Positions 3,936 to 56,981 of a stretch of 64,000 nucleotides of DNA are shown here, in pieces. How positions within the stretch are numbered: the first letter of the stretch is position 1; each line of letters begins with the position of its first letter. Source of the stretch: a virus; the IMG/VR virus record IMGVR_UViG_3300023257_000007, positions 62,001 to 126,000 of that record. One strand, given 5' to 3'. Below the pieces are notes generated by a model. It searched no databases, had not been told where the DNA came from, and saw nothing but the letters and a program-made list of their open reading frames with translations. The position numbers were made by a program, and so were the translations under genes.

Positions 3936-6092
3936 ATGGAAGAAAATACAGAAAATACAAATCAACCAAAATACCCTTGGTTAGCAAAATTTGCAATAAA
4001 TTTAAATGATTATGCATCTAAAGGTAAATTAAAACCAGTAATAGGTAGAGACGAAGAAATTCGTAGAATATTACAAATACTTTCCAGAAAAACTAAAAAT
4101 AATCCAATAGTTATAGGTGAATCAGGTGTTGGAAAAACATCTGTTGTTGAAGCATTAGCCCAAAGAATAGTTGATGGTGATGTACCTGAAAATCTTAAAG
4201 ATAAAGTAATAGCATCTTTAGATTTAGCTACATTAGTTGCTGGTGCAAAATATAAAGGTGAATTCGAAGAAAGAATACAAACCATTGTAAAAGAAATAAT
4301 TGAATCTAATGGTCAAATTATACTTTTTATTGATGAAATTCACACATTAGTTGGTACAGGTGGTGGAAATGGTGCAATGGATGCTGCAGGTATTTTAAAA
4401 CCTATATTATCAAGAGGTGAAATTAGAGCAATTGGTGCAACAACTATTGATGAATATAAAAAATCAATTGAGCAAGATAGAGCATTAGATAGAAGATTTC
4501 AAACAGTTATGATTGATGAGCCTGATAAATTTCAATCAATTTCAATTTTAAGAGGTATTAAAGATAGTTTTGAAAAACATCATGATGTTAGAATAGTAGA
4601 TAGTGCTATTATAAGTGCTGTAGAATTATCAATAAGATATGTATCTGATAGATTTTTACCAGATAAGGCTATTGATTTATTAGATGAAGCTTGTTCTAAA
4701 TTAAGATTAGAAATAAATTCTGTACCAGGTGAAATTGATGAAATATCTAGAAGAATTCAACAATTAGAAATTGAAAGAGAAGGTTTAAGAATGGAAGGAA
4801 ACAATAAAAAAGTTTCAAAAATTACATCTGAAATAGATTCATTAACTGAAAGCTTAAAAACTTTTAATTTACAATGGAACAAAGAAATAGAACTTGTTGA
4901 TAATATTAAAATATTAAAAAAAGATTTAGCTGGATATAATAATGATATCGAAAAATTTAGAAATGAAGCATATTACGAACATGTAGCAAAATTACAATAT
5001 GGTATAATACCAAAAGTAGAACTAGAAATAAAAGAACTAGAAGATAAACTTAAAGAAATACAAAAAGGTGTCCAACTTGTTGATGAAGAAGTTGATGGTG
5101 AAGATATAGCAGAAATTGTAGCAAAATGGACTGGTATACCAGTTTCAAAAATGTTAAAATCTGAAAAAATAAAATTAGTAAATCTTGAAGATGAATTACA
5201 TAAAAGAATTATTGGCCAAAATGAAGCTGTAACAGAATTATCAAACGCAGTAAGAAGAAGTAGATCCGGATTACAAGATACAAAAAAACCAATTGGTTCT
5301 TTTATTTTCTTAGGAACCACCGGAGTTGGTAAAACAGAAACAGCAAAAGCACTAGCTGAATATTTGTTTGATGATGAAAATGCAATGGTAAGAATTGATA
5401 TGAGTGAATATATGGAAAGACATGCCGTAGCTAAATTAATCGGTCCCCCTCCAGGTTATATTGGTTATGAAGAAGGTGGTCAATTAACAGACCAGGTAAG
5501 AAGAAAACCTTATTCAGTAATTTTATTTGATGAAATTGAAAAAGCTCACCCTGATACATTTAATACCTTATTACAAGTATTAGATGATGGTAGATTAACT
5601 GATAATAAAGGTAGAACTGTTGATTTTAAGAACACTATTATTATTATGACTTCTAATATTGGTTCTCATATTATTAGAGAAAATTTTGAAAAATTAACTG
5701 ATGAAAATAGAGAAGAAGTTATTAAAAAAACCAATGATGAAGTAATGGAAGTTTTAAAAAATACTGTAAGACCAGAATTTTTAAATAGAATTGATGAAAT
5801 TGTGACATTTCAACCATTAACAAGAGAAGAAATTAAAAAAATTGTAGTATTACAATTTAACTCAATCAAGAAAAGATTACCAGACGTTGAATTAGAATTA
5901 ACAGAAAAAGCTCTTGATTATTTAACATTAAAATCATATGATCCTCAATTTGGAGCTAGACCAGTTAAGAGAACATTACAAGATACAATTTTAGATGATT
6001 TATCAATGTCAATTTTAAAAGATGAAGTTAAAAAAGATGATGCTATTTTAATTGACTATGATGGTGAGAAAATAACATTTGACAATAAATAG
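3936..6092 (+). CDS. clpB: ClpB-type AAA+ disaggregase lacking the N-terminal domain
   Basis: 718 aa Hsp100 protein with two AAA+ modules. NBD1: Walker A GESGVGKT (61-68), pore loop KYKGE (105-109), Walker B LFIDEIH (130-136). A coiled-coil middle domain occupies about 265-390. NBD2: Walker A GTTGVGKT (460-467), Walker B near 528 (ILFDEIE), then GPPPGYIGYEEGG. There is no ClpP-binding IGF/IGL loop between the second Walker B and the sensor region, and the M-domain is near full length, so it resembles ClpB rather than ClpA/C. It lacks the roughly 140-residue Clp-N domain. Known ClpB threads aggregated protein with DnaK help; a phage copy may support virion protein folding or late-infection proteostasis (inference). 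It stands alone behind an A-rich leader. Confidence 0.92.
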   Translation: MEENTENTNQPKYPWLAKFAINLNDYASKGKLKPVIGRDEEIRRILQILSRKTKNNPIVIGESGVGKTSVVEALAQRIVDGDVPENLKDKVIASLDLATLVAGAKYKGEFEERIQTIVKEIIESNGQIILFIDEIHTLVGTGGGNGAMDAAGILKPILSRGEIRAIGATTIDEYKKSIEQDRALDRRFQTVMIDEPDKFQSISILRGIKDSFEKHHDVRIVDSAIISAVELSIRYVSDRFLPDKAIDLLDEACSKLRLEINSVPGEIDEISRRIQQLEIEREGLRMEGNNKKVSKITSEIDSLTESLKTFNLQWNKEIELVDNIKILKKDLAGYNNDIEKFRNEAYYEHVAKLQYGIIPKVELEIKELEDKLKEIQKGVQLVDEEVDGEDIAEIVAKWTGIPVSKMLKSEKIKLVNLEDELHKRIIGQNEAVTELSNAVRRSRSGLQDTKKPIGSFIFLGTTGVGKTETAKALAEYLFDDENAMVRIDMSEYMERHAVAKLIGPPPGYIGYEEGGQLTDQVRRKPYSVILFDEIEKAHPDTFNTLLQVLDDGRLTDNKGRTVDFKNTIIIMTSNIGSHIIRENFEKLTDENREEVIKKTNDEVMEVLKNTVRPEFLNRIDEIVTFQPLTREEIKKIVVLQFNSIKKRLPDVELELTEKALDYLTLKSYDPQFGARPVKRTLQDTILDDLSMSILKDEVKKDDAILIDYDGEKITFDNK

Positions 6093-6803: not shown

Positions 6804-7178
6804 TTGCGTTCAGATCCATTAGGAATAACAGATTTTATCACGAGACCTGAATTTCTATCAAAGTTATCTGAATATTATGATGGTGATATAAATAATATCA
6901 TAACTAAAAATATCTTACAAAGAATCGGTTTTTATAATGCTAGTTTAAACTTCTCAAAAGGCACTTCATATGCTACTACAGGTCCTAATTACTATGATGT
7001 AGAAAAACTCGTTTCTGGTTTTTTGAAACAACCAGATTTTTCTCTAGAAGATTATATTGAAAAATTCATTGATGCTGACGAAGATAGATGGCGAAGTATA
7101 AGGAAAACGTATAAAACAGATAAATTAAAAGAAAAATATAAATACTTTAGCGAAGCTGGTAAACTCGGATTATTTTAA
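6804..7178 (+). CDS. 3' part of the frameshifted gene
   Basis: 124-codon frame opening with TTG. The frame is already open and protein-like upstream of that codon (from 6753: GILTKEISNYVFNLNGNL), which shows it continues the preceding gene after a one-base shift at the A9 run. The sequence (SDPLGITDFITRPEFLSKL) is unfamiliar. It ends with a 4-nt convergent overlap with the homing endonuclease gene. Confidence 0.55.
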   Translation: MRSDPLGITDFITRPEFLSKLSEYYDGDINNIITKNILQRIGFYNASLNFSKGTSYATTGPNYYDVEKLVSGFLKQPDFSLEDYIEKFIDADEDRWRSIRKTYKTDKLKEKYKYFSEAGKLGLF

Positions 7179-7909
7179 GTATTTATATTATCAAGAAGTT
7201 CCTTTAAATATTTTTTCTTATTCGATTTATATTCTTCTTCAATTATTCTAATTAATTTAATATTATTATCTAGACAATATTCATCTAACAATTTATCTAG
7301 ATGAACAACCTTTTCATATTTTTCTGGTGTGCCTAATTTTTCATATAATTCTTTTGATCTATGCCAAATACCATCATATTCAATAAATAATTTCCTGTCA
7401 GAAAAAGTTATATCAACAGATTTACTATCAATTTTATTAAATGTTATTATCCTATGTGATTTAACATTATGTTCACCATATATTTTTTTGAGATACTTTC
7501 TTATTTCACGTTCACCCTTCGAAGAACATCTACTATTATTTGGTCCTCTTAAATTTTGAATACATTTTTCTCTATATTCTAAATCATTATTTAATTTATA
7601 AATAATTGATTTACTTATTTTATCTTTAGTTTCTTTACTATGTTCTCTCGTATTTGCACATGATCGACTACAAAAATATTTTTCTTTAATTGGAAATTTT
7701 TTAGATGGTTCTTTTACATTAAATTTAACACCACAATTATTACATATTACTTCATAATCAGTTACAACTCCTTGCTCATTTATCATTCTTTTGTGTCTGG
7801 CTTTAATAAGATTATCCTTTGAAGGTTTTTTATGTTTCCATCTTATGTGATTGGCTTTAATTTTAGCATTATCAAATTCTTCATCACAATATTCACAAGT
7901 ATATTTCAT
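7175..7909 (-). CDS. freestanding homing endonuclease, zinc fingers plus Vsr/EDxHD-like nuclease
   Basis: 244 aa. N-terminal C2H2 finger (CEYC at 5-8, with H-x4-H near 20-25), then a second zinc site (CNNC and CSRSC), a NUMOD3-like stretch (SKETKDKISKSI) near 92-103, and a C-terminal Vsr-fold nuclease with SSKGEREIRKYL, VDITF and FIEYDGIWH; the D-x-H arrangement resembles EDxHD homing endonucleases. Such genes spread by cutting homologous phage DNA. It lies between the frameshifted gene and the tmRNA, carries its own TAATATATAG box, and is not inside an intron. Confidence 0.8.
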   Translation of the reverse strand: MKYTCEYCDEEFDNAKIKANHIRWKHKKPSKDNLIKARHKRMINEQGVVTDYEVICNNCGVKFNVKEPSKKFPIKEKYFCSRSCANTREHSKETKDKISKSIIYKLNNDLEYREKCIQNLRGPNNSRCSSKGEREIRKYLKKIYGEHNVKSHRIITFNKIDSKSVDITFSDRKLFIEYDGIWHRSKELYEKLGTPEKYEKVVHLDKLLDEYCLDNNIKLIRIIEEEYKSNKKKYLKELLDNINT

Positions 7910-7927
7910 TTTTCATATTATTTTTAA

Positions 7928-7937
7928 CTATATATTA
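7928..7937 (-). promoter_or_regulatory. TAATATATAG box of the homing endonuclease
   Basis: Recurrent promoter-like box on the minus strand, 19 nt upstream of the ATG at 7909. Confidence 0.45.
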
Positions 7938-7980
7938 AAACTACGAGGTTCAATTCAATACTATTCCAAATACATAAAAC

Positions 7981-8008
7981 AAAAAAGCCACATAATGTGG
8001 CTTTTTTT
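7981..8008 (-). terminator. terminator of the tmRNA transcript
   Basis: AAAAAAGCCACA / TGTGGCTTTTTT stem with a 3-nt loop and a T-run, placed 3 nt beyond the 3' end of the tmRNA on the minus strand. The near-perfect symmetry may also insulate the other strand. Confidence 0.85.
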
Positions 8009-8010
8009 AG

Positions 8011-8587
8011 TGGAGCATTCGGGATTCGCTTTTTTATCCAAAAATTTCTTAATGGCGTGGACTATATCATCAACCTAATTAGGTTGCCGGGCGCTCTAGG
8101 ATGTATGTCATCTAGTCTCTGAACCTTCCATTTCTAAATTAATAGCTTGGCTGCTGATTGCCGTATCTTTTTTTAAAAGACTTAGGGTTCCAGCAATTCA
8201 CCCAGTTTTTTCATTATATGTTACCATATAAGGGGTCCGAATTTAAACCCGAGTTCACAACAAGTTCCAGTTCGCTTTCTACAGATATATTTTATTTTTT
8301 CACAAACAAACAAAATATTCAATCTTTTTTATTTCAGGAAAATTGAAAAATCCCTATTCTATTTTATTTAAATACGATTAGACGTGTCGTACTTGTTGAT
8401 TTGTCTAGGCAACCACTTCCAGAGCAGATTCAACAACTGCTTCTTGTGAAGTTACAATATCAAAGATATCATCGGCTATTTCTATATTGCCATTTAAAAT
8501 TGTTTATCTCCGTATTTTACTTGAACTGAGATTTGACAAGATCTGCTTACTAACCTTCATCGAGAGTGTCTAAAGCCTGTATGCCCC
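8011..8587 (-). ncRNA. ssrA: tmRNA (SsrA RNA), interrupted by a group I intron
   Basis: The 5' end at 8587 reads GGGGCAT followed by GGCTTTAGACA, the tmRNA 5' signature. The 3' end at 8011 reads ATGCTCC-A. These form a 7-bp acceptor stem with a G3-U70 pair, the alanine identity element, and discriminator A73. T-stem TCGGG / CCCGA and T-loop TTCGAAT appear only after removing 8029-8245. A P2-like helix (GCAGAT with ATCTGT, followed by AGAAAGC) also matches tmRNA. Spliced length is 360 nt, normal for tmRNA. A tag frame ends at the TAG at 8405-8407 with ...SALEVVA; the resume codon is not certain. CCA is not encoded. Function: rescue of stalled ribosomes by trans-translation. It follows a tiny DUF5320-like gene and precedes a strong terminator. 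Confidence 0.9.
8029..8245 (-). other. group I intron in the T-loop of the tmRNA
   Basis: 217-nt ORF-less intron. The 5' exon ends GGGTT; intron-internal GGACCC pairs with it to form P1 with the canonical U-G at the splice site. P2 is TTATATG-GTAA-CATATAA with a GNRA loop. Core elements follow in the group I order P, Q, R, S: AATTGCTGGAACCC (near 8185-8198), AATCAGCAGCC (near 8149-8159), TTCAGAGACTA (near 8114-8124) and GATATAGTCC (8059-8068); R and S pair as P7. The intron ends in G at 8029, and the 3' exon CGAATCCC completes the T-loop. It lies between T-loop positions 55 and 56. Confidence 0.9.
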
Positions 8588-8594
8588 ATATTTT

Positions 8595-8747
8595 TTAAGA
8601 ACGTTGTCTACCTTGACCTCTACCTACACCTCTACCATTTCTTTGTCCATTATTAGAATTATTTTCTTCTGATGGTTTACATTTACCTAAACCTCTTCCT
8701 GTTCTAGGTCCGTTTTCATTTGGGCCTTTTCCATTTTGATTTGCCAT
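8595..8747 (-). CDS. DUF5320-like glycine/arginine-rich small protein
   Basis: 50 aa, rich in Gly, Asn and Arg. The motif GPRTGRGLGKC in the middle and the GRGVGRGQGR tail match the style of DUF5320 proteins (GPxTGRGxGxC), whose function is unknown. ATG at 8745-8747, stop 8 nt before the mature tmRNA 5' end, so the RNA is probably processed from a transcript that also carries this gene. A TAATATATAA box lies 16 nt upstream. Confidence 0.65.
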   Translation of the reverse strand: MANQNGKGPNENGPRTGRGLGKCKPSEENNSNNGQRNGRGVGRGQGRQRS

Positions 8748-8762
8748 ATTTACTTTTTTATT

Positions 8763-8772
8763 TTATATATTA
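8763..8772 (-). promoter_or_regulatory. TAATATATAA box for the small gene and tmRNA
   Basis: Recurrent promoter-like box 16 nt upstream of the ATG at 8747. It is the nearest candidate promoter for the tmRNA. Confidence 0.5.
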
Positions 8773-8803
8773 TTCTATTTATACTGAATTTTTCTAAAAA
8801 AGT

Positions 8804-9196
8804 TTATTCTTTATCTAAAAGTGGTATAATTTGATCTTGTATTTCTTCTTGTGTAATACCAGGATATTTTTCTAAAATATTATTATATAATGTAGTACTC
8901 TCTTCTTTTAAAGATTCAATTTTTTCAAAATTAGGTTGTAATTCTTTTTGTGTCTGTAACATAACTCTTTCAATATCATTCAACTTAGAATTTAACTCTT
9001 TTTGAAATGGTTCATCAGTTTCAACTATACCATTATAATCTTTAACCATCCCCTCTAACAGAGAATAAATATTATTTATTTCTCCTTTATATTGATTTAG
9101 AATTTTTTCTTTTTCTTTTATTTTTTCTAATTCAATAAAATACTCTTTTCGTATCCTAATAGCAGAATAAATATATTGTTTATTAATTTTCGACAT
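8804..9196 (-). CDS. hypothetical coiled-coil protein
   Basis: 130 aa, almost entirely helical with heptad-like leucines and isoleucines (residues 20-110). Its start overlaps the end of the 462-aa gene by 14 nt, so the two are co-translated. No family recognised; it may be a partner or chaperone of the upstream protein. Confidence 0.6.
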   Translation of the reverse strand: MSKINKQYIYSAIRIRKEYFIELEKIKEKEKILNQYKGEINNIYSLLEGMVKDYNGIVETDEPFQKELNSKLNDIERVMLQTQKELQPNFEKIESLKEESTTLYNNILEKYPGITQEEIQDQIIPLLDKE

Positions 9197-10571
9197 GCGC
9201 TTTATAACCTTTTTTCTTTGCTGTTTCTGGTAAACAATCTATAACTTTACCTTTTTCATTTACAAATTTATATTGTTGTTTACCTGTTTTAGTTATTTTA
9301 CCTGGTATCAACTTTTTTTCTTGTGTAACAATAATAGATTCTGTTTTAACAAGATTATTATTTTCTTTAACTGATTCAATAACTTCTTCAATTTCTTCAT
9401 CTTTTTTAGAATTATCAATCATTTCATCAAACAATTCTTTATGTTCACCATAAACCTCTGACTTAATTTTATTATAGATTTTCTTTTTCAATCCTGGTAT
9501 ATCTCCTAACAAATCTTTTAACATTTGTTGAGCATAATAATCAATAACATCACCTTTTAGATTCTTTGCAAACATTCTAATAAATGCTGGTTCGGCTATT
9601 TTTTCTTTTATACTTATATCAATAGAAATATTATATACTTTTTCCAACATATCAAACATACTATTAGCCATATTATTTACAGCATTATTTTGTATAGGTT
9701 GTTCTATTGTTTGTTCAACTGGTTGTTTCATAACATCTGTATTAATTTTATTAAGAACTTCATCAGTATTAACAATAGGAGCTTCAATTGCTTTTTGAGC
9801 CTGCCATTCCATCACTCTTTGTGAGTATGGATCACCTTGACCTGCATCAATTTGTTGTTTTCTTATAAGTTCTTCTCTTGGTGTTAACCCAGTTTCAGGA
9901 TTAACTTTAGATTTAGGTTTTTGTGGAACATTTTGTTTAATTTGTAAAACTACATTTGGATCATCTTCATCCACTTGTTTAAATTTAGACAAATCTTCTT
10001 CATTCAATCTAGTTGTCATTTTTAGTTCGCCTCTTTGTTCTGCTGTAGTATTCCACTCTCTCCTTACTAAATCAGCCCTTTGTTCAAGTGATAATCCATC
10101 TTCTTGTTTAACATTATTCTCATTCATTTTAACCTCTGTTTTCATACTTTCAGGAACATCAGCAACTTTTGTTGTATCTACATTTTTAAGTTGATTTGAA
10201 ACTTCCATTATAGAATTATTATTACCATATAAAAAATCTATAGCATCTACTACTTCTATATTTTGAGGTGGTAATTGCCCAGTATTTTGTAAAAATTTTG
10301 TACTTTCTTGTATTTTCTTTTTGTTATTAGCAATATCAGCTTGCATTTTTTGTTCTGGTGTCATAGGTTTTTCAACTTTTATTTGTGTCTTTTGATTCAT
10401 AAAAGATTCAGGGTCGACAGTTTCTAAATAATCATAATACGGAGTAAACATATTAACAAACAAATCTCTTTTTATTTGTACTCCATTACTCAATTCAATA
10501 AACATATCATTAGTATTATCAACTATATGTACTATTTCTTTAGTCTTATTATTTTTAAACTTCTCTGTCAT
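9183..10571 (-). CDS. hypothetical protein, Q/N-rich centre with a helical C-terminal domain
   Basis: 462 aa. The first 70 residues look like a small beta domain (IVHIVDNTNDMFIELSNGV). The middle 75-300 is polar and low-complexity with many Gln, Asn and Glu. About 300-400 is helical (MFDMLEKVYNISIDISIKE). The C-terminus is a short basic beta motif (KITKTGKQQYKFVNEKGKV, residues about 430-448). That last motif recurs in the small zinc protein near 25.6 kb (KKGNKRYIFITEDGKEV), suggesting a shared mini-domain. Virion or DNA-binding roles are possible; I do not recognise the family. Confidence 0.6.
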   Translation of the reverse strand: MTEKFKNNKTKEIVHIVDNTNDMFIELSNGVQIKRDLFVNMFTPYYDYLETVDPESFMNQKTQIKVEKPMTPEQKMQADIANNKKKIQESTKFLQNTGQLPPQNIEVVDAIDFLYGNNNSIMEVSNQLKNVDTTKVADVPESMKTEVKMNENNVKQEDGLSLEQRADLVRREWNTTAEQRGELKMTTRLNEEDLSKFKQVDEDDPNVVLQIKQNVPQKPKSKVNPETGLTPREELIRKQQIDAGQGDPYSQRVMEWQAQKAIEAPIVNTDEVLNKINTDVMKQPVEQTIEQPIQNNAVNNMANSMFDMLEKVYNISIDISIKEKIAEPAFIRMFAKNLKGDVIDYYAQQMLKDLLGDIPGLKKKIYNKIKSEVYGEHKELFDEMIDNSKKDEEIEEVIESVKENNNLVKTESIIVTQEKKLIPGKITKTGKQQYKFVNEKGKVIDCLPETAKKKGYKAHVEN

Positions 10572-13060: not shown

Positions 13061-13293
13061 TTTCATTCTTCGATAAATGCAATGTCTGCATTATGTGAAA
13101 AAACTCTTTTTCTAAATTTTATTACGAAAAAAGAGATAAAGTTTATAAAACACAAAAATTACCTATAACATCAAAATTATCAAAATTTACCACATTTGAT
13201 TTAAATTCAATATTAGAAAGATCTAAGGAAATTTCTAAATATGGTATTAAAGAATGGTTAATTGGTGATCAACTTGATAACATCATATTATAA
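13050..13293 (+). pseudogene. decayed gene beside a homing endonuclease
   Basis: Protein-like sequence exists in three successive frames: MKFDF at 13050, SINAMSALCEKTLF further on, then a third frame from about 13106 (FYYEKRDKVYKTQKL ... IKEWLIGDQLDNII) ending with TAA at 13291-13293. No single frame spans it, so it looks like a gene of about 80 codons with at least two frameshifts. It overlaps the 3' end of the convergent homing endonuclease, so the insertion may have accompanied its decay. Confidence 0.5.
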
Positions 13294-14176
13294 AGAATGA
13301 TTCTAATATTTGTATAACATTTTCATCATAACGTATTCTTATCAAATCGATATTGTTTTCTTTACAATATCGATTTTTTATTTCGTCATTGTTTTGTGTT
13401 TCTTTTAATTTTTTCCAAATTTTATTTTCTCTAAAATGTTGTTCACCATCATATTCAATACACAAATTATGTTTTGGTAAATAAAAATCAAAAGGTAATG
13501 GTAACTTATTTCTACAATCTTTAAATCTAAATTGAATTTCAAAGTCAATATTTCTATCTGATAGATAATTTCTTATTTGTGTTTCACCATGAGACATTCT
13601 ACATATTGGACAACCTTTACCAGATAGGTGGTTGTTCGGTGTTTGATTAAATGTACCATGTTTATCACATATAATTTCAACTTTTGAAATTGCATTTACA
13701 TATTTAACATCACAATAATCATACATATCACCGTGTTTTAATTTTGATTTTTTAATAAATTCTTTCGTATTAGATCTATATGTACCATCACACTTTGGAC
13801 ATCCAGAAACATAATGAGATCTTGGTTCTTGTTCAAAAACACCGTGTTCTGGACACACAATTTTAACCTTGGTTTTATTATTTTCATATTCAACTAAATC
13901 ATAAATATATTTATCACCGTGTTTTAATTTTGATTTTCTAATAAAATCATCGTTTTTAAGAGAAAACAATTCGTTTTTATGTTCTGATGAACATTTTGTA
14001 CAACCACCACCTCTCATATGGACATCTGGTCTTTGTTTAAAAATTCCATGTTTATTGCAAATGATATTAACACATAAACTATTTTTAATATAATTCACTA
14101 AAGAATAATCATATCTAAGTCCATGTTTTTTGATAGATTTTTCAACAAAAATCATAGTATTATACTTTACAGGCAT
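13283..14176 (-). CDS. homing endonuclease, DUF723-like repeats plus Vsr-like nuclease
   Basis: About 297 aa from the ATG at 14176; a TTG at 14206 would add 10 residues. Three tandem units of the type F-x-x-K-S-x-x-K-HG-x-x-Y-x-Y ... I-x-C-x-x-HG-x-F-x-Q-x-P-x-x-H-x-x-G-C-P-x-C cover about 10-200, as in DUF723-type DNA-binding repeats of phage homing endonucleases. The C-terminus (GETQIRNYLSDRNI, FDFYLP, CIEYDGEQHF) is a Vsr/DUF559-like nuclease with E, D and D-x-x-H catalytic candidates. It is a freestanding mobile gene between the decayed gene and the GMP-reductase-like gene. Confidence 0.8.
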   Translation of the reverse strand: MPVKYNTMIFVEKSIKKHGLRYDYSLVNYIKNSLCVNIICNKHGIFKQRPDVHMRGGGCTKCSSEHKNELFSLKNDDFIRKSKLKHGDKYIYDLVEYENNKTKVKIVCPEHGVFEQEPRSHYVSGCPKCDGTYRSNTKEFIKKSKLKHGDMYDYCDVKYVNAISKVEIICDKHGTFNQTPNNHLSGKGCPICRMSHGETQIRNYLSDRNIDFEIQFRFKDCRNKLPLPFDFYLPKHNLCIEYDGEQHFRENKIWKKLKETQNNDEIKNRYCKENNIDLIRIRYDENVIQILESFFII

Positions 14177-14224
14177 ATTTTTAATAATTTTTAAGTAATG
14201 ATTCAAACATTATCTAATATATTT

Positions 14225-34478: not shown

Positions 34479-36200
34479 TTAATTCAAAAAACCATTTTTT
34501 AAAATACCCCACTCAAAACATATATGACCAGAATTATTTATTCTGTAAATACCCCTTTCTAACATTATATCATGCTCTGTTCTATTTGCATCATAACCAT
34601 CTTTAACCAATGTTTGTTTTCTATAATTATATCTATGCCTTCTAACACCATCAACTATGTAATGATAACCTGGTTTTGTTGTGTGACTCCTATTAAAATT
34701 TAAATTATCATAAAGATTGCCTTTACTCCAACTTCTATCAGCATAAGAAACTATTTTTTTCGGATCATAATTTTTAATAAAATATTTAAACAATTTACTA
34801 GCACCACCAACAATATTTGTGTTTAATTTGTTGCAAAACCTTAATAACTCAAAATCATATTTTTTAATAACACCTATACCCAATCTATTCTTACCAAACG
34901 TCATTAAAGAAACTAATTCATTTTCATAATATAATCCTAATTTAACACTAGATCCAACAAAACCTTGTATATGATTATTATCTAAAAATTCTCTTATTAG
35001 TTTATTATCGTTAATTTCCTTTATTTGTGTTTTTCTAGCATAAATTTTATTTGGTGTTTTACCTAATTTATTTAATATCATTGATTTAACTATATTTTGT
35101 TTATATTTCCAATCATCTTCATAAATATGGATTAATTGAATATCCTTTTCTTCACATTTTTCTGTTTTATTTAAATGATATCTATCAGATTTATATAATT
35201 CATTATGCCAATATAAACCATTAAATTCAAAAGCTAATTTTAAATCTGGTAAATAAATGTCTAATTCTAATGGCTTTATTATATTTCTTTTATTATTTAA
35301 AATTGTTTTGTCATAATTCGATTTAATATAATTTAAGAAATCAATTTCAAGTCCAGAAACTGATTTTAAAATAGGATTGCATTTAGTACATAACAAAGTA
35401 TTAGATCTTCGTCTACTATTCAAAAGAACATAACTTATTTCAAATTCGTGTCCTTTTTCACACATCATTAAATATTTTTTTTCTTCTAAATTTAAACTTA
35501 TTACATCATAATCTTCATAATATTTTAAATATTTATTCATGATTGTTTTTCTTAAACTTTTAATCATTCTGTCTTTTAAATCAATATTATGTAATGGTAC
35601 AATCACACCATATTTTTCTTTCATTGTTCTTTGTCTTTTAATTTTAACTAAATCCAATTTTGAAACATTATCAACTCCATATTTACTCAAACACGTTTCT
35701 TTATATCTATTATAAATTTCAACTGATTTTAATGGACTACTGACATTATAATTATCCTTTAGTGTTTTTAAAGATTTTTTATGAATTTCTTCATTTTGAA
35801 TAGGTGAATTATAACCATATTTTTTAATATTAGTTTTGATAATCTTTTCTTTTACTAAAATATTTTCTGATGGTGTTTTTGTACCAAATTTATCTAAACA
35901 TGTTTGCATTCTTTTATTTTTAACATGATTACTTTTATTCATGCATTTCTTAGAACAAAAAGTATAATATCCAATATTAGAATTCTTAAATTTGACAAAA
36001 TTACCACATTCACATATTACAATATTTTTAATATCATTATACCAATGATAAACTTGTTGCTTAAATGGTAAATCATCTAAACCATTTTCAATTACATATT
36101 TTTGTATTTCTTCTAGTATACTAGTAAAATACTTTTCGAGATAATTCTTTCTGAACATTTTACCAGATGAATCTAGATTTTCACTAAAAATACTTTTCAT
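34479..36200 (-). CDS. large freestanding homing endonuclease between sheath and tube
   Basis: 573 aa. A zinc knuckle (CECG ... CSKKC) near 83-104 is followed by at least five DUF723-like repeats of the type T-C-L-x-K-(F/Y)-G-(V/T) (about 115-225), a Vsr/EDxHD-like nuclease (SGLEIDFLNYIK, LELDIYLP, LAFEFNGLYWHNE, about 300-355), and a C-terminal domain (ARKTQIKEIND ... NHIQGF, LGLYYENELVSLMTFGK) seen with large T4-like phage homing endonucleases. Placement between two conserved tail genes is typical of such elements. Confidence 0.85.
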   Translation of the reverse strand: MKSIFSENLDSSGKMFRKNYLEKYFTSILEEIQKYVIENGLDDLPFKQQVYHWYNDIKNIVICECGNFVKFKNSNIGYYTFCSKKCMNKSNHVKNKRMQTCLDKFGTKTPSENILVKEKIIKTNIKKYGYNSPIQNEEIHKKSLKTLKDNYNVSSPLKSVEIYNRYKETCLSKYGVDNVSKLDLVKIKRQRTMKEKYGVIVPLHNIDLKDRMIKSLRKTIMNKYLKYYEDYDVISLNLEEKKYLMMCEKGHEFEISYVLLNSRRRSNTLLCTKCNPILKSVSGLEIDFLNYIKSNYDKTILNNKRNIIKPLELDIYLPDLKLAFEFNGLYWHNELYKSDRYHLNKTEKCEEKDIQLIHIYEDDWKYKQNIVKSMILNKLGKTPNKIYARKTQIKEINDNKLIREFLDNNHIQGFVGSSVKLGLYYENELVSLMTFGKNRLGIGVIKKYDFELLRFCNKLNTNIVGGASKLFKYFIKNYDPKKIVSYADRSWSKGNLYDNLNFNRSHTTKPGYHYIVDGVRRHRYNYRKQTLVKDGYDANRTEHDIMLERGIYRINNSGHICFEWGILKNGFLN

Positions 36201-55162: not shown

Positions 55163-55495
55163 ATGAAAAGATTTGACGAAAAAAAACATATATTAGAACA
55201 ATATCAACAAATGATAAATAGCTTCGATAAATTACAAATCATTTCAATTTATCTCAAATATATCATTGATAATGTTGAAACTGATAAAGATCTTTTAGAA
55301 TTAGACTTAGATTTACCAATCTTAAATAATCAATTTTCAATTGATGGAGATAAAATATACAGATTTCAACTTGAAATAGATAAACTGTTTAATAAACTAA
55401 AAATAAACAAAAATATAAAAATAGATGATGCAAGATTCATCGAAATTAGTAAAAGATTATTAGAATATGCAAAATCAAAAGACGAAGCCGCTTAA
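55163..55495 (+). CDS. hypothetical helical protein
   Basis: 110 aa, helical, leader MKRFDEKKHILEQYQQM weakly like the capsid-signal type. Overlaps the VWA-metallopeptidase gene by 29 nt. Unknown. Confidence 0.5.
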   Translation: MKRFDEKKHILEQYQQMINSFDKLQIISIYLKYIIDNVETDKDLLELDLDLPILNNQFSIDGDKIYRFQLEIDKLFNKLKINKNIKIDDARFIEISKRLLEYAKSKDEAA

Positions 55496-56981
55496 TGTTG
55501 ACTTAAGTAAAATCATTAAGAAAGAAAACGCACATCCACTACTAGAAAACGCAATTATTAGAATGATATCAACATCACACTTACCATATTACGGTGAGTT
55601 TGCTCTTTTTGTTACATTCATTGAAGCAAAAATAGGAACATGTGGTGTAAGTGTTAATAAAAACGGTAATATGATATTTTATTGGGATCCTGAATGGGTC
55701 TCAAAACAATCAATGGGTTCTACTATATTTGTAATGGTACATGAAATTTTTCATTTATTATTTTCACATATTAAAAGGACAGTAGGTTATAATAAGAATC
55801 TATCTAATGTTGCACAAGATATGATTATTAATTCAATTATATATTCAGATCTTATGTTAGGTGAAAAATTGGGACCTGGTTATGAAAATTTTATAGAAGT
55901 TCCACTAGATGATGATGGTAAAAACACAGCATTATTTGTACCTAAAGAATATGATGGACCTTGGGTATTTGAATCTTTATATAAATGGTTGAAAGAAGAA
56001 TATAAAGAATGGAAAGAAGAAAATTCGGACAAATGTAATGACGGAAAATTAACCATTAATGTTGACAAAGATGGTAATATGACTATGCCTGGAAAAGAAG
56101 ACGAAGGTGGTGAACAAGAAGAAGATGGTGAAAATGGAGATCAAGAAAGTGGAAATGAAAAGGGTAAAGAAAAACTAGATTCAACTGGTAAGCCAATATA
56201 TGGTCCTTATGCTGAATCAGATTACCAAGATCAAAAAAGTGGTGAAAAAAGACACACAGACATTGATTGTTATTCTAAAGAACATATTTTTGAAGGTTTA
56301 GAAAGTAGTAAAGGTTTAACATTGGATTGTCACTTTGATGATGAAGTACCAGAAGAAATAAGAAGAGAAGTTGTAAATAGTGTAATGCAAAACCTTAAAA
56401 ATAGAGGTTTAGAAACATCAGATATTGCCGAAACATTAAGAAAACTTCAAAAATCTGAAAAAGATTATCTTAAATATATTAAAAGAAGTTTAAGTCACCA
56501 TGTATTTGGTACTAAAAAAATGAAATCTATCACCAAACCAAATCGTAGAGGTATCTGGGGATTAAAAGGCAATAGAAAATATAAAACAAAAATCAATTGT
56601 ATTTTAGATACATCTGGTTCTATGAGTGGTGAATTTGAAAAAGCTCTAGCTTATATTTTTCAAAATGATATTTCAGTTAACCTTATACAATGTGATACAG
56701 AAGTAAAAGATTTTATTGAAGTGACCGACAAAAATCAACTTAATCAAATGGAAATTAAAGGTTTAGGTGGCACAACACTAACACCAGGTATAAAATATAT
56801 TGCAAATAATAAAGATTTAAATAAATTAAATACAGTTATTCTTACAGATGGATATGTTGATCAATTAGATTTTACAGGTGTAAAAGGAAAAGTTTTGATT
56901 ATATCAAATTCTGTTGAATGTCCTATATTAAAATCAAACAATAAAATTAAGCAGATTATTATTGATAAGTCAAATGATTAA
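55467..56981 (+). CDS. DUF2201-type metallopeptidase-like/VWA protein
   Basis: 504 aa. N-terminal putative zinc-protease region with HEIFHLLFSH (92-101). A long Glu/Asp/Gly-rich linker covers about 200-270. The C-terminal VWA domain has DTSGSMSG from Asp381, GLGGTTLTPGI near 432-442 and VILTDGY near 455. This is the DUF2201 architecture whose genes pair with MoxR AAA+ ATPases; such pairs remodel protein complexes. The MoxR partner is at 58.8 kb, with mobile and translation genes in between. Confidence 0.85.
   Translation: MQNQKTKPLNVDLSKIIKKENAHPLLENAIIRMISTSHLPYYGEFALFVTFIEAKIGTCGVSVNKNGNMIFYWDPEWVSKQSMGSTIFVMVHEIFHLLFSHIKRTVGYNKNLSNVAQDMIINSIIYSDLMLGEKLGPGYENFIEVPLDDDGKNTALFVPKEYDGPWVFESLYKWLKEEYKEWKEENSDKCNDGKLTINVDKDGNMTMPGKEDEGGEQEEDGENGDQESGNEKGKEKLDSTGKPIYGPYAESDYQDQKSGEKRHTDIDCYSKEHIFEGLESSKGLTLDCHFDDEVPEEIRREVVNSVMQNLKNRGLETSDIAETLRKLQKSEKDYLKYIKRSLSHHVFGTKKMKSITKPNRRGIWGLKGNRKYKTKINCILDTSGSMSGEFEKALAYIFQNDISVNLIQCDTEVKDFIEVTDKNQLNQMEIKGLGGTTLTPGIKYIANNKDLNKLNTVILTDGYVDQLDFTGVKGKVLIISNSVECPILKSNNKIKQIIIDKSND

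Follow-up and report, generated by a model that had tools for sequence, protein, structure and literature searches.

How can a phage tmRNA gene serve ribosome rescue when its T-loop is cut in two, and what keeps the interrupting DNA in place? The question arises from a gene at 8587-8011 on the minus strand of the 64,000-nt stretch analysed here (the window, bases 62001-126000 of a 348,222-bp virus record), in which the T-loop is interrupted between U55 and C56. The window has a G+C content of 25.6%, and its products include a tail sheath, a clamp loader and a number of homing-type nucleases. ARAGORN with standard settings called no tmRNA in the genomic window, and with a lowered threshold it returned two permuted-type calls on the unspliced sequence, which the Rfam tmRNA model scored at 8.2 bits (cut-off 47). 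Once the flanks were joined, 8246 to 8028, a tmRNA was called from 8587 to 8010, one base beyond A73; the span 8011-8587 agrees with G1 to A73. The 5' exon (8246..8587, minus), assigned from the ARAGORN start on the joined sequence and from a pairing table, comprises the 5' strand of the acceptor stem, a D-like region, the tag frame, a putative pseudoknot region, the 5' strand of the T-stem and U54-U55, while the 3' exon (8011..8028, minus) runs from C56 to A73 (CGAAT CCCGA ATGCTCC A), with the CCA incompletely encoded. In the pairing table, the acceptor stem is paired at all seven positions, including G3-U70, and is followed by A73, and the T-stem (5/5) and the T-loop UUCGAAU are complete only after 217 nt (8245-8029) are taken out, which would leave the exon junction ...GGGUU^CGAAUCCC. 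The tmRNA elements named in a first-pass annotation, made from the letters alone, are present on the minus strand.

The tag reading frame called by ARAGORN, DDIFDIVTSQEAVVESALEVVA plus stop, lies at 8405..8473 (minus) directly after AAUAGCC. Tags of tmRNA usually end in ALAA, and the one in the window ends in VVA. In the phage tmRNAs compared (8405-8473 minus, L004 and L008-L013) the tags as called have 17 to 33 aa, which is long, and their C-termini read VVA, VSVA, VAVA, VLA or ILA. A pattern scan placed an intrinsic terminator-like hairpin immediately 3' of the tmRNA (7981..8007, minus), one of two such hairpins in 7150-9250 against 0.4 expected from shuffles. On the other side, a small ORF of 50 aa, read from the sequence (8595..8747, minus), stops 7 nt upstream of the tmRNA and may be co-transcribed with it, in which case 5' processing would be required.

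The 217 nt removed (8029..8245, minus) are a minimal group I intron, as the first-pass annotation had proposed. In the covariance-model check named beforehand, where a blank was to count against that proposal, Rfam Intron_gpI (RF00028) matched at 8256-8038 (minus) with 100.2 bits and an E-value of 1.8e-26, against a cut-off of 50. P1 forms as GGGUU:GACCC with a U-G pair at the splice site, P2 (8214..8231, minus, from an RNA fold) is capped by a GUAA loop of the GNRA type, the P, Q, R and S elements follow in order in the Rfam alignment, and the last base is G. Among ten related introns, 30 of the 48 consensus pairs show two-sided changes. The conserved core (P, Q, R and S; P3-P8) as scored by the covariance model, the splice-site U-G, the terminal G and covariation confirm the class of the insertion, and with the ARAGORN call after joining they bear out the reading of a viral tmRNA split in its T-loop. 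A whole-window cmscan at the gathering threshold with fast filters reported tRNAs only and missed the intron; together with the blank standard ARAGORN run, this means that such split tmRNAs slip past standard annotation. In the ARAGORN controls none of 5000 dinucleotide-shuffled versions of the joined sequence was called. Of 514 possible deletions of 217 nt, 10 were called, their offset from the exact deletion ranging from -2 to +7. The program alone therefore cannot set the junction to the base, which is fixed instead by the U-G rule, the terminal-G rule and an empty-site relative described below.

We infer that the intron is spliced in cells and that the joined RNA is active as tmRNA. The partners of T-stem pairs 49-65 and 50-64 flank the intron, and in eight intron-split viral tmRNAs (which include the near-copies L012 and L021) plus the intronless L008 these positions appear as T-A, C-G, G-C or A-T and are kept paired, the sole exception being one mismatch in L021. 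In each of the three tRNA-Ala genes in the pairing table the T-stem carries one T-T mismatch. The compensatory changes across the intron suggest that the joined RNA has been selected, and they speak against a decayed gene that has lost splicing in a phage relying on the host tmRNA. Decay would agree with the A at the last intron base of L004 and L249, with the T-stem mismatch in L021 and with the unusual tag ending; in the window, however, all splice rules are obeyed and acceptor stem and T-stem are fully paired, and we consider decay very improbable.

The 735-kb phage LR756501 (L004), presumably the 735-kb phage of PMC7162821, with which it agrees in size, has its tmRNA split at the same place as the window. 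A second viral tmRNA, that of L008, lacks the intron, carries an unbroken GGGTTCGAATCCCC arm and is 85% identical to the L004 tmRNA; judged by this comparison, it is a natural empty site for the L004 intron. It scores 75.6 bits with the Rfam tmRNA model (cut-off 47) and is 54% identical to the window tmRNA; an intronless allele from the window's own species was not found. In LR756501 the tmRNA is followed by a nuclease gene and then by a DHFR-like ORF (recognised by eye), and in L008 the tmRNA and the DHFR-like ORF are present with the nuclease gene absent between them. The LR756501 intron ends in A, and splicing of that copy may be poor.

The first-pass annotation had further proposed that the split couples rescue to intron folding, GTP level and timing of infection. 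An intron kept as such a switch would make sense in that the tmRNA is completed only by splicing, so that control of splicing would be control of the tmRNA. Nothing in the promoter, terminator and Rfam scans points to regulation by GTP level or infection timing, however. Bacteroidota-type promoters occur in the window at chance level (8 found, 7.9 expected) and so give no pointer to the host. The L008 tmRNA, closely related to that of LR756501, does without the intron; the tmRNA matches of the huge phages LR756500, LR756504 and Lak-C1 run over the full Rfam model and above its cut-off (95.5, 65.2 and 49.4 bits), with ARAGORN calling a tmRNA among these three in LR756500 only; and the intron holds no own-strand ORF of at least 60 aa. 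This part of the proposal thus found no backing, and we regard a switch as extremely improbable. An SmpB gene was not found in the 348-kb record, and host SmpB may serve the phage tmRNA. About 2 kb from the tmRNA, 3936-6092 (plus) encodes a ClpB-like AAA+ protein without N-domain (ClpB 1051 bits, not reaching the cut-off of 1232; ClpA 702 bits), and in L011, L012 and L013, too, a protein of that PHROG is encoded some 2-3 kb, by coordinates, from the split tmRNA. A Clp pair of the phage's own for degrading tagged proteins was considered and dropped, since the protein is more ClpB-like than ClpA-like and a ClpP gene was not found.

Split genes of this kind also occur in other viruses. Scans of viral contigs with a pattern of the S element plus the 3' half of the T-loop gave 14, 4 and 63 stretches, of which 9, 2 and 8, respectively, were retained as T-loop introns by filters and reading. 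L019, L020 and L021 were taken to duplicate the window, L013 and L012, respectively. Counting each distinct gene once and adding L004 and L182, we arrived at 18 viral RNA genes with an Rfam-recognised T-loop group I intron, a lower bound of a chosen kind, as the scans fix T-loop letters and one filter demands U at -1. Thirteen are tmRNA genes (window, L004, L009, L010, L011, L012, L013, L187, L216, L221, L234, L239 and L249), four encode tRNA-Ala (L016, L104, L106 and L182) and one tRNA-Pro (L247). The joined-sequence filter is imperfect, having missed L009, L010, L021 and L104, which were accepted on other grounds. ARAGORN called 16 of the 18 after joining; for L009 and L010, the two without a call, the assignment as tmRNA is based on stems, tag and alignment with other split tmRNAs. 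The last intron base is G in 16/18 (A in L004 and L249), and the insertion site is U55/C56 in 15. In the remaining three (L104, L106 and L182) it is U54/U55, and in L104 and L106 the guide of the tRNA-Ala intron is shifted along with this one-base-earlier site, GCCCAC or GCCCAU for GUGGGU as against GACCC for GGGUU. A splice-site U-G was present in 12 of 13 P1 rows, near-copies included; for L004 the script chose another 4-bp pairing, and manual reading found the U-G alternative.

A tree of 14 introns gave no resolved branching and did not recover the T-loop introns as one clade, and the window intron is as similar to a psbA intron (67% identity) as to most other T-loop introns (63-70%); both results count against the T-loop introns having arisen only once. 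A further viral tmRNA, L183 1879-3290, has a candidate intron of 195 nt between U59 and U60 of the T-loop; Rfam did not recognise this intron, and the gene was left out of the 18; the nuclease ORF of L183 has an in-frame TGA at a conserved Trp, suggesting that TGA is read as Trp. GOLLD RNA lies within about 2 kb of the split tmRNA in L216 (7078-7485, 322 bits) and L249 (9693-10107, 328 bits). No bacterial candidate was retained: among 81 genome-contig stretches the joined-sequence filter kept one, L026, an intact tRNA-Gln T-arm joined to a second T-arm; eight others inspected by eye were unrelated; and in the Aquimarina class 3 of 395 genomes fit a looser pattern, by chance to judge from the matched strings. 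Bacterial relatives at this subsite may well exist, and PMC11915505 reports some. A tmRNA match in Lak-A1 was an edge artefact over a tRNA.

What could move an intron without an ORF of its own? Beginning 101 nt after A73, a gene for a free-standing putative homing endonuclease of 244 aa lies behind the tmRNA (7175..7909, minus). By eye, its product has an N-terminal C2H2 finger and zinc ribbon and a C-terminal nuclease-like part with the motif IEYDGIWH, a part that we take to resemble EDxHD/Vsr-like enzymes. PHROG 559 (HNH endonuclease) matched it with an E-value of 1.6e-11, no convincing relative was found in Pfam or the PDB, and a single-sequence AF2 model was unusable (pLDDT 39.9). The protein is 47% identical over 244 aa to the product of the ORF that follows the split tmRNA in LR756501 at a distance of 92 nt, and a search of 50,697 phage records gave three matches, two of which, LR756501 and LR756503, identical here, cover at least 80% of the nuclease. 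Behind the split tRNA-Ala genes of L106 and L104, at 91 and 90 nt, lie ORFs that share the finger domain (47% for L106) and have an HNH-type C-terminus. In the window, L004, L104, L106 and L182 the distance from gene to nuclease is 90-101 nt. Endonuclease VII-like genes stand about 60 and about 100 nt behind the split tmRNAs of L010 and L216 instead. Altogether, a nuclease gene begins no more than about 100 nt downstream of 7 of the 18 split genes (window, L004, L104, L106, L182, L010 and L216); in the other 11, considering ORFs above about 70-90 aa and with a short flank in L247 and L012, none was seen directly behind.

The finger domain was matched at E<1e-45 in 5 of 15 records, once in each (window, G008, LR756501, G009 and G010), and all five matches lie directly behind an intron-split T-loop gene; the cases are not all independent, since G008 is almost a twin of the window and L104 is close to L106. 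A sixth record, Lak-C1, gave weaker matches (E 4.6e-10 and 2.5e-5), with no split gene shown alongside. A scan of IMG/VR with the finger domain yielded 15 loci, three being cases already known and L176-L178 near-copies. With L004 included, a same-strand tmRNA or tRNA gene ends about 31-109 nt upstream of the nuclease gene in 14 of 16 loci, several of them near-copies, and in 12 of those 14 it is a tmRNA or tRNA-Ala gene. In L179 a tmRNA-like gene is convergent with the nuclease gene at about 4 nt, and in L180 no RNA was recognised upstream; with the Rfam tmRNA model L173 (40.9 bits) and L179 (28.9 bits) fall short of the cut-off of 47.

Several observations around these genes are recorded here in their own right. 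The spacer between tRNA-Ala and nuclease in L104, L106, L176 and L182 contains a block TCGATT-N-ATTCTCCAC that resembles a tRNA 3' end and occurs 14 times in 3.37 million bases of collected loci, both strands counted, many of these loci overlapping because they derive from the same contigs. The window has additional homing-type nuclease genes at 34479-36200 (minus), 55467-56981 (plus) and 13283-14206 (minus); the product of the last is about 32-34% identical, across some 100 aa, to the C-terminal half of the partner nuclease and of its counterpart in LR756501. A GIY-YIG-like ORF, identified by eye (L151 1457-2107), is found a few hundred bases upstream of the L016 split tRNA-Ala, and in L221 an ORF beginning MKKCKWCDQIFDTSD, with a zinc-finger-like start, lies about 1 kb behind the split tmRNA.

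The intron might be an old, neutral self-splicing passenger and the nuclease one of the many phage homing genes near tRNAs, with no functional link between the two. The 11 of 18 viral split genes with no nuclease seen directly behind would fit such a passenger, as would the several other nuclease genes of the window and the general presence of homing-type genes in phage tRNA clusters, where SegB is co-localised with tRNAs of many isotypes (PMC13096335). However, in the carriers the finger family is not scattered but gives one strong match per genome, behind the split gene in all five, the spacing is held at 90-101 nt in five loci, and LR756501 and the window phage keep the pairing at only 47% nuclease identity. 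We therefore consider an unlinked passenger unlikely. The adjacent nuclease, the empty site, and the fact that relatives of both intron and nuclease sit at tmRNA and tRNA-Ala genes together make a selfish mobile element a better fit than regulation.

Our preferred reading, which we consider probable, is that the phage tmRNA becomes functional only after the intron removes itself, and that the ORF-less intron spreads with the adjacent nuclease by collaborative homing. The anatomy, an ORF-less intron next to a putative free-standing nuclease gene, matches that of such a pair. The group I intron would excise itself from the T-loop to leave a complete tmRNA; in a co-infecting phage the zinc-finger part of the nuclease would bind an intact tmRNA or tRNA-Ala gene in its 3' portion, the C-terminal part would cut the gene there, and repair off the carrier would copy intron and nuclease gene together. 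The carrier's own gene would be spared, its T-arm being interrupted by the intron. The pairing at rescue-RNA and alanine-tRNA genes suggests selfish DNA specialised in one loop of tRNA-like genes. For the wider idea of a phage homing endonuclease family specialised on alanine-type tRNA-like genes (tmRNA and tRNA-Ala) at the end that holds the T-arm, a family which would keep one zinc-finger targeting domain and swap its nuclease domains, we see the balance as even.

Should the nuclease act at this loop, intronless relatives that carry its gene might be protected by an altered T-arm. Altered T-loops were found in the intronless carriers L173 (CTCGAAA), L176 (ATCGTAA), L175 (ATCGTAC) and L179 (TCTCGGA), and ordinary ones beside the nuclease gene in L184, L174 and L185. 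Among tmRNA and tRNA-Ala neighbours four of five loops are altered (L173, L175, L176 and L179, not L184) versus 16 of 79 other tRNAs (Fisher p 0.011), and with tRNA-Cys and tRNA-Ser neighbours added four of seven (p 0.048), in groups picked after the data had been seen and with the loops of L173, L179 and L184 read by hand. The test counted L177 and L178 with L176 and left out L180, L120 and L121; the tRNA-Ala neighbours of the last two belong with another nuclease family, the L121 loop being ordinary and that of L120 not parsed. The altered loops are only suggestive of protection; the nuclease family may help to account for the odd T-loops of huge-phage tRNAs. The 13-bp T-arm GGGTTCGAATCCC is intact elsewhere in carriers (one copy in G000, two in G008, three in G009, one in G010 and nine in W01), in tRNA genes where checked. 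A target consisting of this arm alone was accordingly rejected, and either the target must reach beyond the T-arm or the homing model is wrong. In L179 (2450-3640) the tmRNA-like gene with the altered T-arm and convergent nuclease gene is accompanied by a second canonical tmRNA-like 3' end past the nuclease gene, as though the first end of the gene had been pushed aside.

T-loop introns in bacterial tmRNA genes have been published, and so, separately, have tmRNAs of phages and collaborative homing; among the matches listed in a search of the open-access literature by titles and abstract openings, we found no viral tmRNA with an intron and no tmRNA-targeting homing nuclease, and hence no viral setting of a split tmRNA with its partner gene. 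Phage-encoded tmRNAs have been reported (PMC4131195, PMC9004378), with tmRNA genes in 402 of 18,146 phage genomes (PMC9004378), and resemble the present gene in being carried by phages, while the word intron is absent from both main texts. Huge phages are also known to carry tRNA introns, namely the Lak megaphages (PMC6784885); the available part of that source does not describe T-loop group I introns or a partner nuclease. The closest RNA counterpart is the bacterial intron-form tmRNA gene (Nawrocki, Petrov and Williams 2025, PMC11915505), whose 883 sequences at four subsites bear out the first-pass remark that bacterial tmRNA genes can be split in this way. In both, a group I intron interrupts the T-loop after a U at -1 and ends in G, and by our own count the U55/C56 site of the window is position 3 of that study, reported there only from the class Bacteroidia. 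The differences lie in the carriers, bacteria there and viruses here, although that database includes 79 phage tmRNAs; in length, with an average of 293 nt for 843 founding introns there and 217 nt in the window; and in the homing gene, intron-borne in 36 of 883 cases there and a separate nuclease gene behind the tmRNA here. The mostly ORF-less bacterial introns leave the puzzle of how they reach new tmRNA genes, and the viral reservoir described here comprises 18 genes, seven of them closely followed by a nuclease gene through which the intron could spread.

SegB is a GIY-YIG enzyme. In T4-like phages it cuts inside tRNA genes at the motif RAWTSGAAC (PMC13096335), which by our own reading would be the complement of the T-loop sequence GTTCSAWTY; a term search of the main text of that paper gave no mention of T-loop or T-arm. 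Phage origin and putative cutting in tRNA-like genes are common to SegB and the present nucleases, SegB differing in having no intron partner reported in that text. In cyanophage S-PM2, the free-standing nuclease F-CphI cuts the intronless psbA allele and the intron shields its carrier (PMC6083498, PMC3984707). F-CphI is the prototype of such a partner, and the endonuclease VII-like genes of L010 and L216 are of its class (PMC6083498). The likeness to the pair proposed here extends to an ORF-less group I intron, an adjacent free-standing nuclease and protection of the carrier gene by the intron; the difference is that the putative targets are tmRNA or tRNA-Ala genes and that the nucleases are apparently of three types.
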